A stretch of 25,194 nt of DNA, taken from IMG/VR virus record IMGVR_UViG_3300031566_000337, positions 1-25,194 of that record. One strand, written 5' to 3'. This DNA comes from a virus. This document shows positions 16,812-24,513 of this stretch, in pieces. Under the pieces are notes generated by a model. That model saw nothing but the letters and a program-made list of their open reading frames with translations. It did no database searches and had not been told where the DNA came from. The position numbers and the translations under genes were made by a program. Position 1 is the first letter of the stretch, and each line of letters opens with the position of its first letter.

Positions 16812-18482
16812 TTAGATTCTCCGGTACTCGCAAATCGCCTGGCGCGGACGTTGAACCGACCCGTAAGGCGACACCACCTGAAGCCCCTGCGCCGCCAGAT
16901 AAAAGTAATTCAGCGCATGACGGTAATGGTCGTCTTCTGGCCCGATGTACCGATACACCTGCGCTCCCGTTTTCTTGTTCGTCTCTAGTATTTTCGCCAT
17001 ACTCGCCACATGCTTTGCATATAATTCCACTTCCGGGCATCGGCGCGGAATCCTGAGCGCTCCTTCCGCCACCAGCCGATGCGTCGCGTCACAGATACCC
17101 GTTCGGTAGACTTTCACCACGCCCGTTTCGTCGTTGACGACGTTTTCAATCAAGGCGTTCTCGGTGTATTCGCACAAGAGGATGCGGTACGGCTCAGACG
17201 CCCTGAACTTTCTGGCATCGTGTTCATAGGGCCGGATGTCCACTACAGCGCTTCGAACGTTGAACGCGCGGGACAGGTCATGTACCGCCGCCCATGCCGA
17301 GTTCATCGTCACCTGATTGGCGGCACAGGGAATCCGGGCCATCCGCAAAATCTCGTACCTGTCCTTGGCCGTCCTGGTCCCGATAACGACGTGGAACTCG
17401 CGGCCGATGTCCACGCCCATCGCACACGGACCGCCGTGGTACGTCGGCATGGCTTCGGACCCGCAGCACTCGAATACCTGGCCTTGCGACAACCGGGCCT
17501 CTTTGGGGGTATGAGGCAGGCCAAGGCGCAAGTGATAGGTGTCCGAGAGATTCGGATTCTGCGGGTCGTTGAACTCTTTCAGGATGTCGGCGGGATCGTT
17601 GTAGGCACTCGACAACTGGCTCCAGTGATACCCGGCCATTTCCTTTACATCAGGTCTCTTGGCTACCCATTCTCCCGTGCCAGGCCCCGCATGGGTCGGG
17701 ACCGGCTTCCCGCATTTCGGACACGCGATGTACCCGCGCCCGTCGTCGCCCAGGCGAATACAGTCAGGGAACCGCTCATCGGCCGAGAACCGTTCACCGC
17801 AAGAACACCGGCGGAACCAATACCGCTGGTCAGATTGCTGGAACAGTTTGTCTATCCCGATCCCCTCGGCCGTGGGATTCGAGATATAGGCTTCCTCCTG
17901 AATCGCCGAGGACCGCGACCGGCCAAGACCCTTGGCAATGGCGTCCTCGTCCATCAGGTCTAATTCATCGAACACCACGCGGTTGACCTGAATCCCCCGC
18001 AACTTCGAGGCTTCCTTGTCGGACGTTCCGCCCTCGATAATCTGCGTCAACCGCGCCCCGCGAAGAAACAGGTTGGCGTCGCCCACCTTCTTCAGGCTCG
18101 TGGTATCCGTTCCCTTGCCACCCGACTTCACGAACTTCCCGATACTGACGGGATTGGCCGCAATCAAGGGACCGAACCTCGACTTGGAATACTCGCCCAC
18201 GTCGTCCGTCGTCGGAAAGAGGTAGAGGACGCCAAGAGGATACCGCCCGTAAATCATCCCGTGCAACGCCCGCAGAATCTCCAACTCCGAAAACCCGCCG
18301 CCCGTGGCCTTCATGTAACAGACCCGACGATGCCGCGAAGTCATGGGTTCCAACTGGTAGGCGTGGTGCGGATAAAGTTCGAACGTGCCGCTCTGAAGGC
18401 GTATCTGGTTAAGACACGCCCAGAACGCGGCATCGTAGGTCGCCACGGTTGCCGGTTTCACCTGTTCAGGCGTCAGGGGCAT
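16812..18482 (-). CDS. terL: Terminase large subunit (GpA-like packaging ATPase/nuclease)
   Basis: A 556-aa protein from ATG 18482, in the duplicated start sequence. The ATPase has Walker B V-V-F-D-E-L-D at 169-175. Its P-loop region is M-K-A-T-G-G-G-F-S-E at 57-66, deviating from the classical form: Phe stands where the usual Lys would be, with a Lys at 58. A zinc-finger-like insertion (C226-x-C228 and C254-x-x-C257) follows, as in GpA-type terminases. The nuclease has candidate metal ligands D358 (G-V-D-I-G), D415 (V-V-D-I-R) and D517/D518 (E-D-D-H-Y-R-H-A). It translocates and cuts the genome at the portal. It overlaps the upstream gene by 10 nt. GpA-like TerL with a T7-like portal is a mosaic arrangement. 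Confidence 0.9.
   Translation of the reverse strand: MPLTPEQVKPATVATYDAAFWACLNQIRLQSGTFELYPHHAYQLEPMTSRHRRVCYMKATGGGFSELEILRALHGMIYGRYPLGVLYLFPTTDDVGEYSKSRFGPLIAANPVSIGKFVKSGGKGTDTTSLKKVGDANLFLRGARLTQIIEGGTSDKEASKLRGIQVNRVVFDELDLMDEDAIAKGLGRSRSSAIQEEAYISNPTAEGIGIDKLFQQSDQRYWFRRCSCGERFSADERFPDCIRLGDDGRGYIACPKCGKPVPTHAGPGTGEWVAKRPDVKEMAGYHWSQLSSAYNDPADILKEFNDPQNPNLSDTYHLRLGLPHTPKEARLSQGQVFECCGSEAMPTYHGGPCAMGVDIGREFHVVIGTRTAKDRYEILRMARIPCAANQVTMNSAWAAVHDLSRAFNVRSAVVDIRPYEHDARKFRASEPYRILLCEYTENALIENVVNDETGVVKVYRTGICDATHRLVAEGALRIPRRCPEVELYAKHVASMAKILETNKKTGAQVYRYIGPEDDHYRHALNYFYLAAQGLQVVSPYGSVQRPRQAICEYRRI
18463..18482. repeat. Direct repeat copy 1, at the start of the TerL gene
   Basis: A 20-bp sequence covering the first codons of TerL. 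It recurs at 19361-19380 with a single mismatch (C/A at the ninth base). The two copies are 898 bp apart and bracket the 290-aa gene exactly. Confidence 0.8.
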
Positions 18483-19345
18483 ACTGTCGCCACTTCCTTT
18501 GCAACCTTCACGGCATAATCCTTGACCACGGTTCCGTATTCCTCCGTCCCACGAACGTGAGGATGCCACCAGTACCGTCCTATGTGCCGGCCCAGTAACG
18601 GAGCATCGGGAGTGTATTCCTTGAAGTGACCGCGAACCGAATGAAGCGGCAGCATCCTTGATTCACTTGTGAGGTCCGAAAGCCGCACCGTTCCGCGCCT
18701 CGGAACTTTGACGGTCAGCACTTTGTAGGTGATGCGATTCCGCTTCCCGCCGAACCGGTAGTTCATTTCCTTGACGGAGCGCCGGTCGTGTTCCACGTCC
18801 TCCGTACCGACGTTCTTGCAACCGAGCATGGCAAGGGCATAAACCACTACCAACATGTTGGTCGCAACCAGAGTATCGTATTCCTCCCCACGACCATGAG
18901 ATGTTTGCCGCGTTTTTTTTAAGAGGTCGCCAAAAGTGAAATCTTCACGCTCTATATCCCAGCCGACCACATGGACTAGCGCGGGTTTTGTTATATTAGA
19001 AGACACAAAAAGATACCAGGTCATCTTCGTCGAGGTTCCTCTTGTATCTTCCAAGCCAAGCACGCCACCCTTCACACCAGATTCTGAAAGCCCACCCAGG
19101 CTGTCGGCCCACTCAAACCAGGTTTTTGTATACGGCAATCTAGGAATTGGAAGTTCCGCAACCTCTTTCTCGCCCAAAGCCTTGTTGTTGAGCATCCTTT
19201 CCACGGGCGATAGATTAAAAGATGTCGTCTTGGACAACGCGTCTCTTATTGCTGCGTGAACCAATCGTGGTTCTTTCCCACCACACGCCGCGATGTTAAG
19301 GTTAAAGCCGTGATAGGCTATCCGCTCTATCAGCATTTGGCTCAT
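18473..19345 (-). CDS. Unknown protein inserted between sigma factor and TerL
   Basis: A 290-aa protein from ATG 19345, with GGAGG seven bases upstream (a TTG six bases earlier is too close to that site). The N-terminal two thirds are relatively AT-rich at DNA level (T-runs near 18912). The C-terminal part holds a conserved-looking His/Arg/Trp block: H-S-V-R-G-H at 235-240, Y-W-W-H-P-H-V-R-G at 258-266, then G-T-V-V-K-D-Y. Similar blocks occur in uncharacterised phage proteins. A hydrophobic stretch lies near 158-174. Both it and the sigma factor end in C-P-stop because each stop lies in a copy of the duplicated TerL start. Function unknown; regulation or packaging are possible by context. 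Confidence 0.7.
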   Translation of the reverse strand: MSQMLIERIAYHGFNLNIAACGGKEPRLVHAAIRDALSKTTSFNLSPVERMLNNKALGEKEVAELPIPRLPYTKTWFEWADSLGGLSESGVKGGVLGLEDTRGTSTKMTWYLFVSSNITKPALVHVVGWDIEREDFTFGDLLKKTRQTSHGRGEEYDTLVATNMLVVVYALAMLGCKNVGTEDVEHDRRSVKEMNYRFGGKRNRITYKVLTVKVPRRGTVRLSDLTSESRMLPLHSVRGHFKEYTPDAPLLGRHIGRYWWHPHVRGTEEYGTVVKDYAVKVAKEVATVCP

Positions 19346-19360
19346 CGGCAAACCTCCGCA

Positions 19361-19380
19361 TGTTCAGGAGTCAGGGGCAT
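19361..19380. repeat. Direct repeat copy 2, remnant of a TerL start
   Basis: This copy encodes, leftward, M-P-L-T-P-E, the same first six residues as TerL, then diverges and stops after 12 codons at a TGA overlapping the ATG of the 290-aa gene. It also contains the stop of the sigma factor gene. It looks like the original or duplicated TerL 5' end left behind on the far side of the inserted gene. Confidence 0.75.
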
Positions 19381-20072
19381 CGCGCCTCCATCCGTTCCCG
19401 TATCCGACCCTTGGCCCGTTCGATTACCTGAAACACCCGCGTCGTGCTGATCCCCACTGTTGCCCCAACTTGCTTCAACGTCAACCCCTGCTGAAAATGG
19501 AGCGACAGAATCAACCGAGTCCGATCTGGAGGCCCCTTCACCAACCTCTCCCATTCATCCTGGTCATCCAACCCCGGCGTCTCCCCCAAACACGAAACCC
19601 CATATGGCTCGTTCCTCGCATCCCCGTCCCGACAATCCGTGAACCGCCGACATCCCGCCAACCGACCCGCCATCATTGCCCTCCGGCTCTCGTCCCCACA
19701 CTCCGCTTTGTTCGCCCACATCCGACCCTGCCGCCCCATCACGTCCTGGCCCCGAAGTTCGTTCATCATCCGACACCACATCTTCCGATAAGCCCACGTC
19801 TTAAACTTCGCCCCATGCCCGTCTTCCCACGTCTCAATCGCCGCCAACAACCCCTCCGCCGCCATCTGCGCCATGTCACCCGCCGTCACGTCAAAACTGT
19901 GATTCATCCGCCGACGCACCTGGCCCGCCAACCCCACCGCCAGCGGATAGTAGTGCTCCCACAGCCGATTCCGGTCCTCCAACCCCCGGCCCCGACGATA
20001 CCGGCCCCATAGCCGCTCAACCTCGGCCTCGCCCATCCCGTTCAACGGAACACTAATCTCGGCGATGTTCAT
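19371..20072 (-). CDS. RNA polymerase sigma factor, FliA/WhiG-like
   Basis: A 233-aa protein from ATG 20072, overlapping the upstream stop as ATGA (an upstream TTG is unlikely). Residues about 19-107 match sigma region 2: L-W-G-R-Y, E-H-Y-Y-P-L-A, then A-A-E-G-L-L-A-A-I-E-T-W, K-F-K-T-W-A-Y and M-M-N-E-L-R, as in the FliA/WhiG group of sigma70 factors. Residues 185-227 form region 4 with a helix-turn-helix (L-T-L-K-Q-V-G-A-T-V-G-I-S-T-T-R-V-F-Q-V-I). The middle is Cys/Arg-rich and not obviously region 3. It would bind host core RNA polymerase and redirect it, presumably to late phage promoters. It lies in the packaging operon, downstream of an intrinsic terminator. Confidence 0.88.
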   Translation of the reverse strand: MNIAEISVPLNGMGEAEVERLWGRYRRGRGLEDRNRLWEHYYPLAVGLAGQVRRRMNHSFDVTAGDMAQMAAEGLLAAIETWEDGHGAKFKTWAYRKMWCRMMNELRGQDVMGRQGRMWANKAECGDESRRAMMAGRLAGCRRFTDCRDGDARNEPYGVSCLGETPGLDDQDEWERLVKGPPDRTRLILSLHFQQGLTLKQVGATVGISTTRVFQVIERAKGRIRERMEARCP

Positions 20073-20335
20073 CTGTTTGGATTGGCCCAAAACCAATCAC
20101 CGGGCTTGCCACCAGCGACCCTCTGCGCGAACCCATTGATCTCGATTCCGGCCATCCTTGTCACCACCCGCTCACCGCCACAACACGGACACCGCTCCAC
20201 GTCCGGCATCGAAAGTGCCTTATACGCGGCCTCGTCCAGCGTCACAGCCAAAACCGCGCCCCCGGCTTCCTCCGCCAACTGACGCAAATCCAAAAGCACA
20301 TTCACAAACTTTACGTGCTGCCTGTTCGACACCAT
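20069..20335 (-). CDS. Small protein with C-x-C-C zinc knuckle
   Basis: An 88-aa protein. The N-terminal 40 residues are probably helical. Residues 49-54 (C-P-C-C-G-G) form a possible half zinc site, with no second Cys pair. The C-terminal portion is Gly/Trp-containing. AAGGAG lies seven bases before the ATG at 20335. Its TGA overlaps the sigma factor ATG by 4 nt, so the two are translationally coupled. It could be a partner or regulator of the sigma factor, such as an anti-sigma, but nothing in the sequence proves that. Confidence 0.65.
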   Translation of the reverse strand: MVSNRQHVKFVNVLLDLRQLAEEAGGAVLAVTLDEAAYKALSMPDVERCPCCGGERVVTRMAGIEINGFAQRVAGGKPGDWFWANPNR

Positions 20336-20471
20336 GTGATTCTCCTTGTCTCGGCAATCTCCATCTCACGAAGCCTCCGCAATCTTGATGGTCGCGTGAC
20401 GGGTAAGGTAGGCGCGGATTTTGTCCACAGAATCCGGTCTTGTTTCTACCCAACCCACCGACCCAACGAAA

Positions 20472-20503
20472 AGGGCAACCTCCCTCGCGCGAGAGGTTGC
20501 CCT
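20472..20503 (-). terminator. Intrinsic terminator for leftward transcripts
   Basis: Arms of 11 bp, AGGGCAACCTC (20472-20482) and GAGGTTGCCCT (20493-20503), enclose a GC-rich loop that can itself pair. Read leftward, the stem is followed by CCCTTTTCG, a short T-run; rightward there is none. It lies in the 256-bp gap between the tail-anchored membrane gene and the sigma operon, which otherwise holds no convincing gene or promoter. Confidence 0.7.
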
Positions 20504-20591
20504 GAATCTTCTGATTCGCGCCCGGCCCGTCAGCCCGACGCTATCGTTGGATTTTACTCAAACCCCGTCCACTCAAGGGCCGGGGAGTGTC

Positions 20592-20816
20592 TCACTTCCA
20601 GAAATGTAATACCACCGCACAGGCCAACAGCACGATCCCGACGACGATAGTCCCAACCATGCACCCCCTGGCGGCTTTATACCAACGGCACGCCGACGTG
20701 CATGACCCCACCGCCTCGCACGCTGCCTGCCGAGCATCGGCCGCGTGCCCCGCTGCCGCCCATGCCAACTCCTGAATGTCCGCCATCGTCGCCTTCGAGT
20801 CTATTCGCTTTGCCAT
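20592..20816 (-). CDS. Small C-terminally anchored membrane protein
   Basis: A 74-aa protein from ATG 20816, with AGGAGG six bases upstream (a GTG three bases earlier is less well spaced). The N-terminal 50 residues are Ala/Cys-rich and helical. Then comes one hydrophobic helix near the C-terminus (G-T-I-V-V-G-I-V-L-L-A-C-A-V-V-L), ending H-F-W-K, so the bulk likely faces the cytoplasm. No family is recognised. A holin or another membrane accessory is possible, but no endolysin lies nearby. It is the last gene before the terminator in the TerS transcript. Confidence 0.65.
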   Translation of the reverse strand: MAKRIDSKATMADIQELAWAAAGHAADARQAACEAVGSCTSACRWYKAARGCMVGTIVVGIVLLACAVVLHFWK

Positions 20817-20917: not shown

Positions 20918-21289
20918 TTAGGCTCCCTTGGAATTAAACAGGGGCAGCCTGTCATGCCCAGCGCCCGCCTCTCCCTCAACCCCGACCTGTTCAACGCGCA
21001 ACTCGCCAACATGAATCAGACGATGACAGTTAGGACACACGGCCATTGTGTTTCCTGACTCGTACTGTCCCCCATTACATCCGAACACTATACGATGCAC
21101 GTCACATGGCCCCGCCCACCCGCATAGAGCACACTTGTTTGACTCTAGGCCCTTGTTCTTCCTTTGTCGGTGCATACCGCATTCTCTGCGATAGAACACT
21201 CGGCCCTTATAGCGCCCCTTCTTTTCTTGCAGCCTTGTGCATCCGGGAACCACGCACGTTCCGCGAATGTAACACGACCCACTACCCAT
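20918..21289 (-). CDS. HNH endonuclease downstream of TerS
   Basis: A 123-aa protein. The core is C53-A-L-C56 with D64-V-H65-R, N80, then C85-P-N-C88-H89-x(3)-H93, the zinc-bound beta-beta-alpha metal arrangement of HNH nucleases with H65, N80 and H89 as likely catalytic or metal residues. The first 45 residues carry a further Cys/His cluster (C12, C17, C37, H40) that may bind a second zinc. The ATG overlaps the end of TerS by 8 nt. HNH proteins encoded beside terminases are known to take part in genome cutting during packaging in some phages; a homing nuclease is the alternative. Confidence 0.8.
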   Translation of the reverse strand: MGSGSCYIRGTCVVPGCTRLQEKKGRYKGRVFYRRECGMHRQRKNKGLESNKCALCGWAGPCDVHRIVFGCNGGQYESGNTMAVCPNCHRLIHVGELRVEQVGVEGEAGAGHDRLPLFNSKGA

Positions 21290-22214
21290 TGTGTGTGCCC
21301 TCGTCTGAATCGCTCGACCCTTGATCCTGCGCTACTGGCGGGGGTGCTTGCGCAACAGACTGCTCATTATCGGACCTTGCCGCCTCTGCTGCTGCCCTGG
21401 AGGCCCTGGCCTTGTCGAGCCGCTCTTGCTTGTGCAGTTCGCGCATCCGCTCGTTGTGCCGCCGCCTAAGTTGCCCTTTGCTGCACCCGCGCTTACGCCT
21501 GGCCTTGTGATCGTCTCCAATAGGCTCTACGGCTTGCGCTTGCTCGGCTTGGACCTGGACATCGAGGGCGGGCGTCGGCGCTCCTGCGCAATCCTGGCGC
21601 GTCTCTTGCGGCTGCTCAAGGCTAACATCGCCCATATCCGGCCCTACAACCGGCGCAGCCAGCATCGCTACCGGCTCGTGCTCTACGTCTATCACGGCCC
21701 CCAGCCCCGCCGCCCCCGCTTGCTCAAGTCTCACACGAGCCAGTGCATGATACTCCGCCTCTAACCGCGCGTCGTATTCCACCTTCACACGAACATCAAC
21801 GTGCAACGACTCATCGTACGCACCGCACGTCTTGCCCAAGTCCTCAAGATTTCGCGTCGCATTCGTCAAGTCCTCAGCCAACAGCGCCTTCGCAATCAAC
21901 GTCTCGTGCCCGGCCTGGACCTTAGCCACAGTGACAAGTCCATCAAACTCCAACTTCGCCGCGAATTGCTTTTCAAGGCGCTCGATCTCGGCGCGAACTA
22001 CCTGTTGACTCACCAGCGCCGATGCCGTCTTAACCGCGCTTGTCTCTTTGTATCCTGCGGCTATGGCTGATCTTGTACCATTATGATAAGTATCGGTTCC
22101 TGGCGTAGCGTAGGCTCTGATGAAGGCAGCGCGCCGTTGATTGGCTCGGTAGGTTGCGGGTTTATCTGCTGGCGGTTTTTGGATAGTTGCTGCGCTGGAG
22201 TTGGCTGCTGTCAC
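21282..22214 (-). CDS. terS: Terminase small subunit with long basic C-terminal extension
   Basis: A 310-aa protein, GTG start at 22214 with a weak GGA site; no suitable ATG exists nearby. Residues 26-85 fit the DNA-binding domain of the terminase small subunit family (R-R-A-A-F-I-R-A-Y, A-I-A-A-G-Y-K-E-T-S-A, V-V-R-A-E-I-E-R-L-E-K). It would recognise the packaging site and recruit TerL. Most members are 150-200 aa. Here an additional Ala/Gln/Pro-rich tail follows, including a strongly basic helix at about 236-271 (K-A-R-R-K-R-G-C-S-K-G-Q-L-R-R-R). TerL lies 2.8 kb downstream rather than adjacent. A sigma70-like promoter sits about 75 bases upstream. Confidence 0.8.
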   Translation of the reverse strand: MTAANSSAATIQKPPADKPATYRANQRRAAFIRAYATPGTDTYHNGTRSAIAAGYKETSAVKTASALVSQQVVRAEIERLEKQFAAKLEFDGLVTVAKVQAGHETLIAKALLAEDLTNATRNLEDLGKTCGAYDESLHVDVRVKVEYDARLEAEYHALARVRLEQAGAAGLGAVIDVEHEPVAMLAAPVVGPDMGDVSLEQPQETRQDCAGAPTPALDVQVQAEQAQAVEPIGDDHKARRKRGCSKGQLRRRHNERMRELHKQERLDKARASRAAAEAARSDNEQSVAQAPPPVAQDQGSSDSDEGTHNG

Positions 22215-22289
22215 TGCTTCGTTCCGTTTCTCAGTACCATCGTCACAAAGCGCCTCCGATTTTCAGTAGTCGTTAGAATTATTTGTCAG

Positions 22290-22318
22290 ATTATGGGAAC
22301 GGGCTTGTGCGGTGTCAA
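22290..22318 (-). promoter_or_regulatory. Sigma70-type promoter for the TerS transcript
   Basis: On the minus strand, TTGACA (22318-22313) and CATAAT (22295-22290) are spaced by 17 bp: a perfect -35 and one mismatch in -10. Transcription would start near 22283, giving a leader of about 70 bases before the TerS GTG. It suggests recognition by the ordinary host sigma factor. Confidence 0.7.
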
Positions 22319-22374
22319 GTCTATTCCGTTCACGTTTGCGCTGGATTTTTCTAACCCTTGTGCCGATAATACCA

Positions 22375-22481
22375 GTGTCAATGGAGTGCGTAGCGTGAAC
22401 ACAGAAGAGGAGCCGCAAGATCGCTCACGGGGAAGCCCCTGCCTAACGGCTGCGGATTCCATTGACACCGTGGGCGATCTT
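22375..22481 (+). other. Two crossing inverted repeats over the HNH gene start
   Basis: GTGTCAATGGA (22375-22385) is the exact complement of 22458-22468. A 14-base segment at 22417-22430 is complementary (13 of 14) to 22468-22481. The two right arms are contiguous and the pairings cross, so they are either alternative structures or a pseudoknot. The first left arm covers the GGAG ribosome binding site of the GTG start at 22395. Confidence 0.6.
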
Positions 22482-22862
22482 ACTGCCCCTCAAGAGTGGG
22501 TAGATTTTGTCGCTTGGCGAAACAAGAACCCCGAAAAGATCGCCACGGGGCTGCGAACGGGACTTTCTCGGCGGCCCACGCGCGAAGAAGCATATTGGGA
22601 GTGGAAGCGCAAGTACGATCTTGAATGGACGAGGGAACTACGAGACGAAATCCGCAAACGGGATGGCTGCGTTTGTCAGTTGTGCAGCAAGCCGCAGACC
22701 GAGTGTGCGCGCAAACTAGACGTTCATCATGTGAATTATAACAAGAAAAACAGTGAACCGCTAAACCTCATTTCTCTCTGCCGCAGTTGCCATATCACCG
22801 TCAACGCCCATCGCGCAAATTGGACAAAATATTTTTCGGAATTCCTATTGACAGGGGCCTGA
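22395..22862 (+). CDS. HNH endonuclease, rightward, homing-type candidate
   Basis: A 155-aa protein from GTG 22395 with GGAG eight bases upstream; the frame is open further left but without start signals. Residues 80-150 form an HNH domain: R-D-G-C-V-C94-Q-L-C97, then D-V-H-H112-V-N-Y-N, N124-L, C129-R-S-C132-H133-x(5)-H139, with aromatic residues after it (W143, Y146, F147). The N-terminal 75 residues are Arg/Trp-rich and may contact DNA. It is transcribed divergently from TerS, 180 bp away, and is immediately followed by a promoter for two small genes. A free-standing mobile nuclease is likely. Its first third is overlaid with long inverted repeats, which leaves the exact start uncertain. 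Confidence 0.75.
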   Translation: MNTEEEPQDRSRGSPCLTAADSIDTVGDLTAPQEWVDFVAWRNKNPEKIATGLRTGLSRRPTREEAYWEWKRKYDLEWTRELRDEIRKRDGCVCQLCSKPQTECARKLDVHHVNYNKKNSEPLNLISLCRSCHITVNAHRANWTKYFSEFLLTGA

Positions 22863-24435: not shown

Positions 24436-24513
24436 TCGAACATCGGCGTTCTTGCCTCGCTACTCGTCAAGAGCCTCCAGAATTACGCGGTATCGAACAT
24501 CGGCGTTCTTGCC
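24436..24513. repeat. 21-bp direct repeat at the end of the zinc-ribbon gene
   Basis: An identical 21-bp segment occurs at 24436-24456 and 24493-24513, 57 bp apart. The right copy encodes K-N-A-D-V-R near the end of the zinc-ribbon protein. The left copy lies just past its stop codon (24460-24462), with CTCGC after both copies. It looks like a partial duplication of the gene's 3' end. Confidence 0.7.

Follow-up and report, generated by a model that had tools for sequence, protein, structure and literature searches.

The window, a 25,194-nt stretch of viral DNA (IMG/VR record IMGVR_UViG_3300031566_000337), carries a gene for a 290-aa protein directly upstream of the gene for the large terminase subunit (TerL). 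The gene lies between two copies of a 20-nt sequence that derives from the TerL start, and it looks acquired. One-sided recombination between two phages is the preferred explanation for its gain, with a probability of about one half. The junction is a clear scar of ordinary phage gene acquisition and calls for no new insertion machine.

It is debated how phages gain single genes without breaking reading frames: joins may be targeted by boundary sequences, or they may fall at random and then be sorted by selection. Where a stub of the old gene start stays readable, as here, the position of one joint can be seen (about 20 nt into an essential gene), and so can a way for translation to continue on either side.

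Gene order and the repeat pair

The features of the junction are as follows.

16812..18482, minus strand: TerL, large terminase subunit of the GpA ATPase type, 556 aa; its start ATGCCCCTGACGCCTGAACAG encodes MPLTPEQ
18463..18482, minus strand: repeat copy 2, native; the first 20 nt of TerL, which also provide the 290-aa gene with its TGA stop
18473..19345, minus strand: gene for the 290-aa protein (P0002), phrog_20769; its stop lies inside the TerL start
18483..19360, minus strand: inter-repeat segment of 878 bp, taken as acquired DNA
19361..19380, minus strand: repeat copy 1, the TerL-start relic (19/20 identical) and source of the TGA stop of the sigma gene
19342..19380, minus strand: micro-ORF of 12 codons, MPLTPEHAEVCR, which starts inside the relic and whose TGA forms an ATGA overlap with the start codon of the 290-aa gene
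19371..20072, minus strand: phage sigma-70-like factor (P0003), 233 aa; Pfam Sigma70_r2 and r4, approximately 2e-8

Further upstream, a 310-aa small terminase and then a small HNH-like protein of 123 aa are encoded at 20918-22214; between these genes and TerL lie an 88-aa gene, the sigma gene and the 290-aa gene. An HNH endonuclease ORF (22083-22862) lies on the plus strand, opposite to the structural genes, and its start overlaps the 5' end of the small terminase gene (21282-22214). Four HNH copies related to it occur in the relative L007. An exact 21-bp direct repeat is found at 24436-24456 and 24493-24513, 57 bp apart.

The repeat reads ATGCCCCTGAC[T/G]CCTGAACA on the minus strand. Its two copies, ATGCCCCTGACTCCTGAACA at 19380..19361 and ATGCCCCTGACGCCTGAACA at 18482..18463, are identical at 19 of 20 nt and are spaced 898 bp apart, and a search of the window that tolerated up to three mismatches gave no other copy. 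The repeat, its positions and the 898-bp unit had been described in a first-pass annotation and are confirmed here, as is the observation that the sigma factor and the 290-aa protein both end in C-P-stop, each terminating inside ATGCCCCTGA. The same annotation held that the repeat brackets the gene exactly. This is true of the 3' end, where the stop of the 290-aa gene falls inside copy 2, and not of the 5' end, where the ATG lies 15 nt beyond copy 1 and is preceded by a GGAGG ribosome-binding sequence. The far copy was also read correctly: from 19380 to 19342 it gives M-P-L-T-P-E-H-A-E-V-C-R-stop, and the stop overlaps the start codon of the 290-aa gene at 19345. Through this overlap the micro-ORF, if translated, may couple translation to the 290-aa gene.

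A search of IMG/VR for the 20-mer, with any base allowed at the mismatch, returned only the window's genome and IMGVR_UViG_3300031539_000094. Over the 10.4-13.7 kb stretches that were compared, the latter and the window are 100% identical, so the two represent one genome and do not count as separate examples of the repeat. Having a single independent genome leaves room for chance or an assembly artefact. Such an origin is extremely improbable, given that none of 100 dinucleotide shuffles held two copies, that the position of the repeat matches three gene boundaries and that a diverged copy would not arise from an assembler.

TerL as the source of the repeat

TerL is identified by a match to Pfam GpA_ATPase (PF05876; 1e-14, above the curated cut-off), which places the GpA ATPase domain in the protein, and to the terminase large subunit family phrog_675 (6.3e-73). 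Relatives were found on at least 80 viral contigs. Of 60 distinct TerL N-termini of the family, a set that includes the window and one probably mis-called start (L082), 17 have the form M-x(0-5)-[LIVF]-[TSN]-P. Examples are MELTPEQ (L048), MDLTPEQ (L068), MALTPNQ (L061) and MPDLTPEQ (L075). The closest relatives, 63-79% identical, differ from the exact start found in the window. N-termini of the form M-x-L-T-P recur in this family, so the repeat sequence belongs to TerL. The copy at 18463 is thus the native TerL start, beyond which the gene continues normally, and the one in which the sigma gene stops is the relic of such a start.

Beyond the 20 nt, the continuation of the relic matched no TerL start significantly (score 16; shuffled 95% value, 19), and the flanks upstream of the two copies shared no significant similarity. 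A longer relic from another TerL allele was considered, because V-C in the micro-ORF resembles MELTPEQRIVCA of L048, and was set aside because the DNA match did not rise above shuffled sequence. The single mismatch does not discriminate between an old duplication and two alleles.

Origin of the 290-aa gene

The first-pass annotation regarded the 290-aa gene as acquired, and its features support this. Its GC content is 52% (0.522), against 59-62% in its neighbours (0.591 in TerL and 0.620 in the sigma gene), and its codon-usage score is among the four lowest of 22 genes scored, the others being the 171-, 123- and 310-aa genes. Relatives occur in actinophages, in plasmids and on about 30 viral contigs, and include Mutaforma13 gp50 and Omnicron gene 54 (detected by profile and tblastn). 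In annotated phages the homologue sits in non-structural regions and not before TerL, and the gene was absent from the position before TerL in every relative sampled.

The protein matches phrog_20769 (6.5e-30), and alignment revealed the C-terminal RGHFK...G..G..W....RG...D-Y signature of that family. A 13-residue tail follows the conserved D-Y; its length is within the homologue range and hints weakly at a borrowed stop. Searches of Pfam, NCBIfam, PADLOC and PDB sequences gave no match. The AlphaFold model has a mean pLDDT of 67, and a fold search with it returned no PDB match at E < 0.001 and only viral proteins without informative function. No recombinase, transposase or nuclease was recognised in the protein by Pfam, PHROGs, NCBIfam, PADLOC or PDB sequence and fold searches.

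The gene is also not bracketed elsewhere. At 20 homologues the best flanking repeats were 9-14 nt long, mostly inside the shuffled range, so the repeat belongs to the TerL side and not to a mobile cassette. A self-mobile cassette was rejected on the same grounds, namely the lack of a recombinase match and of flanking repeats at homologues.

The first-pass annotation had proposed that the gene was inserted at the TerL start with duplication of the junction. In the version of this model considered here, a genome in which the sigma gene met TerL was opened at the TerL start, an 878-bp stop-less fragment was inserted, and 20 nt around the break were copied to both sides by staggered-break repair or template switching. 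The observed structure would follow in one step, with insert edges that coincide exactly with the repeat, a direct target repeat (19/20 nt) around 878 bp and a C-P-stop on both upstream genes. Twenty nucleotides is long for the target duplications made by transposons, which counts against the model. The 878-bp segment has no significant terminal inverted repeat (score 15; shuffled 95% value, 16), and neither a transposase or nuclease match nor repeats at homologues accompany it. Target duplication is therefore considered possible and rather unlikely. The further suggestion, that the structure points to a particular mechanism for inserting genes at start codons, is not supported, as no recombinase, significant terminal inverted repeat or bracketed homologue was found, and nothing supports a dedicated start-codon insertion machine.

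The site upstream of TerL in relatives

An all-against-all comparison revealed that the gene directly before TerL differs in most relatives and that few such genes are shared. This boundary is thus a good place to seek more junctions of the same kind. Similar Ser/Thr-rich low-complexity proteins of 229-284 aa are encoded directly before TerL in L051, L077 and L093.

The sigma gene is kept in only two relatives, L005 and L007. A sigma alignment search recovered these two and the window's genome and no further carriers, and a genome-contig scan with the TerL alignment added two distant relatives. The sigma factor of the window ends in ...RERMEARCP, with its stop inside the relic, and those of L005 and L007 end in ...VEQRA and ...VESRV respectively. 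All three proteins end within a residue or so of one another (EARCP, EQRA and ESRV). In L005 and L007, a related gene of 97 or 90 aa, unrelated to the 290-aa gene, stands between the sigma gene and TerL.

These relatives bear on the earlier claim that the sigma gene once overlapped TerL directly. The relic points to such an ancestor, whereas L005 and L007 carry the intervening gene, and no relative was found in which the sigma gene touches TerL. The 20-mer scan of IMG/VR could have revealed an empty site, that is, a sigma-TerL junction with this sequence, and matched only the window's genome. Nor was a donor phage found in which the 290-aa gene precedes a TerL.

In L061, L068 and L070, upstream genes that do not match each other stop inside the TerL start (...NS-stop, with the stop at +17), because the codons for LTPE hold out-of-frame stops. 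Genes that borrow their stop from the TerL start thus occur repeatedly in the family, so that the window is not special in this respect, and genomes whose last gene overlaps TerL do exist.

Proposed one-sided recombination

We infer an ancestor in which the sigma gene was joined directly to TerL, with ATGCCCCTGA serving as overlapping start and stop. This ancestor would have recombined with a related phage whose TerL was immediately preceded by the 290-aa gene. The first joint would be a homologous exchange inside TerL, and the second a non-homologous one about 20 nt into the old TerL, a process known as homology-facilitated illegitimate recombination. Of the old TerL, the six opening codons would stay behind as the relic, which still ends the sigma gene, opens the 12-codon micro-ORF and would pass translation to the ATG of the 290-aa gene via the ATGA overlap. 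The real TerL start terminates the 290-aa gene. A remnant of displaced sequence is present at the proposed non-homologous joint, namely the TerL-start relic at 19361-19380. One-sided recombination is preferred because a single new joint and a donor whose gene overlaps TerL suffice, and genomes with such an overlap are known from the relatives described above.

Campbell-type integration has also been considered, in which a circle carrying the 290-aa gene and a short TerL start duplicated the shared stretch by a single crossover. This would yield direct repeats around the insert, and in Escherichia coli single crossovers of circular molecules gave duplications (PMC3240628). A circle with a TerL start would be needed, RecA-type recombination usually requires more than 20 bp and such a donor was not found, so that this route appears improbable, more so than target duplication. 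Both routes produce the same end product as one-sided recombination.

Start-region repeats in related loci

A survey of 119 related loci (0.9 Mb), with genes called by a simple longest-ORF rule, identified 20 cases in which short direct repeats at successive gene starts bracket a gene, compared with 1.4 +/- 1.2 in a position-shuffled control. In-register start repeats were found in 14 of 908 adjacent gene pairs and in 6 of 1896 more distant pairs of the same cluster (Fisher p 6e-4). Most of these repeats span the ribosome-binding site and the ATG, several share a locus (L082 and L084), and some reflect gene duplication (L082, and an N-terminal duplication in L049). Near-identical blocks of 17-23 nt over the ribosome-binding site and ATG occur at consecutive small genes in L012, L041, L061, L075, L082, L084, L086 and L088. 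In L049, two consecutive genes after TerL have a common start block of about 34 nt (1518-1553 and 2069-2104) and about 30 similar N-terminal residues (MASKTKKMRQ...), after which the first gene runs into unrelated sequence.

Both excesses are a lead rather than a result. It is doubtful that phages of this group repeatedly gain single genes by duplicating some 17-25 bp of a neighbour's translation-start region, with the TerL-start relic as the clearest fossil of the process.

The survey also bears on whether the window's repeat is a functional motif for translation coupling or initiation rather than a scar. At each junction a stop and a start do overlap in ATGCCCCTGA, and related phages have short start-region repeats elsewhere. 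Half of the repeat (10/20 nt) lies outside this overlap and codes for TerL residues, and the repeats of relatives mostly have the opposite polarity, spanning the ribosome-binding site and ATG. The window's repeat runs downstream from the ATG, has no Shine-Dalgarno sequence and occurs only twice; hence the alternative raised in the first-pass annotation, a ribosome-binding or start motif common to many genes, is excluded, and a coupling motif of any kind is very unlikely.

Comparison with known systems

In T4-type phages, PeSL (promoter early stem-loop) cassettes are described as mobile and regulatory, with short repeats that flank exchangeable genes (cited in PMC4503421). The window is similar in having short repeats around an exchangeable gene. 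It differs in that a promoter scan of 18300-20700 gave no sigma-70-type match and RNA folding at the repeats gave no unusually stable structure. The Start-Associated Sequences (SAS) of Cluster K mycobacteriophages are also short repeats adjoining start codons. They precede the start codon and exist in many copies, with one sequence common to many genes (PMC3203893), whereas the repeat in the window has two copies, starts at the ATG and extends into the coding sequence.

Integration that is homologous at one end and illegitimate at the other is an established process (PMC3240628). Homology-facilitated illegitimate recombination has been discussed for bacterial variable segments (PMC2884548) and proposed for Vibrio cholerae T6SS arrays, in which parts of the displaced module stay at the junction (PMC5361080). 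The proposed history of the window would share with it one homologous and one non-homologous joint. The known cases mostly concern bacterial transformation or conjugation, whereas here the process would have taken place between phages, as judged from one junction.

Phage mosaicism at gene boundaries has been explained by two models, homology of boundary sequences or illegitimate recombination followed by selection (PMC3233612). As a single example, the window does not decide between boundary targeting and random joining. As in phage mosaicism generally, unrelated single genes have been swapped precisely at a gene start with the reading frames kept. Unlike the usual mosaic boundary, the joint in the window kept a readable copy of the start of the downstream gene.
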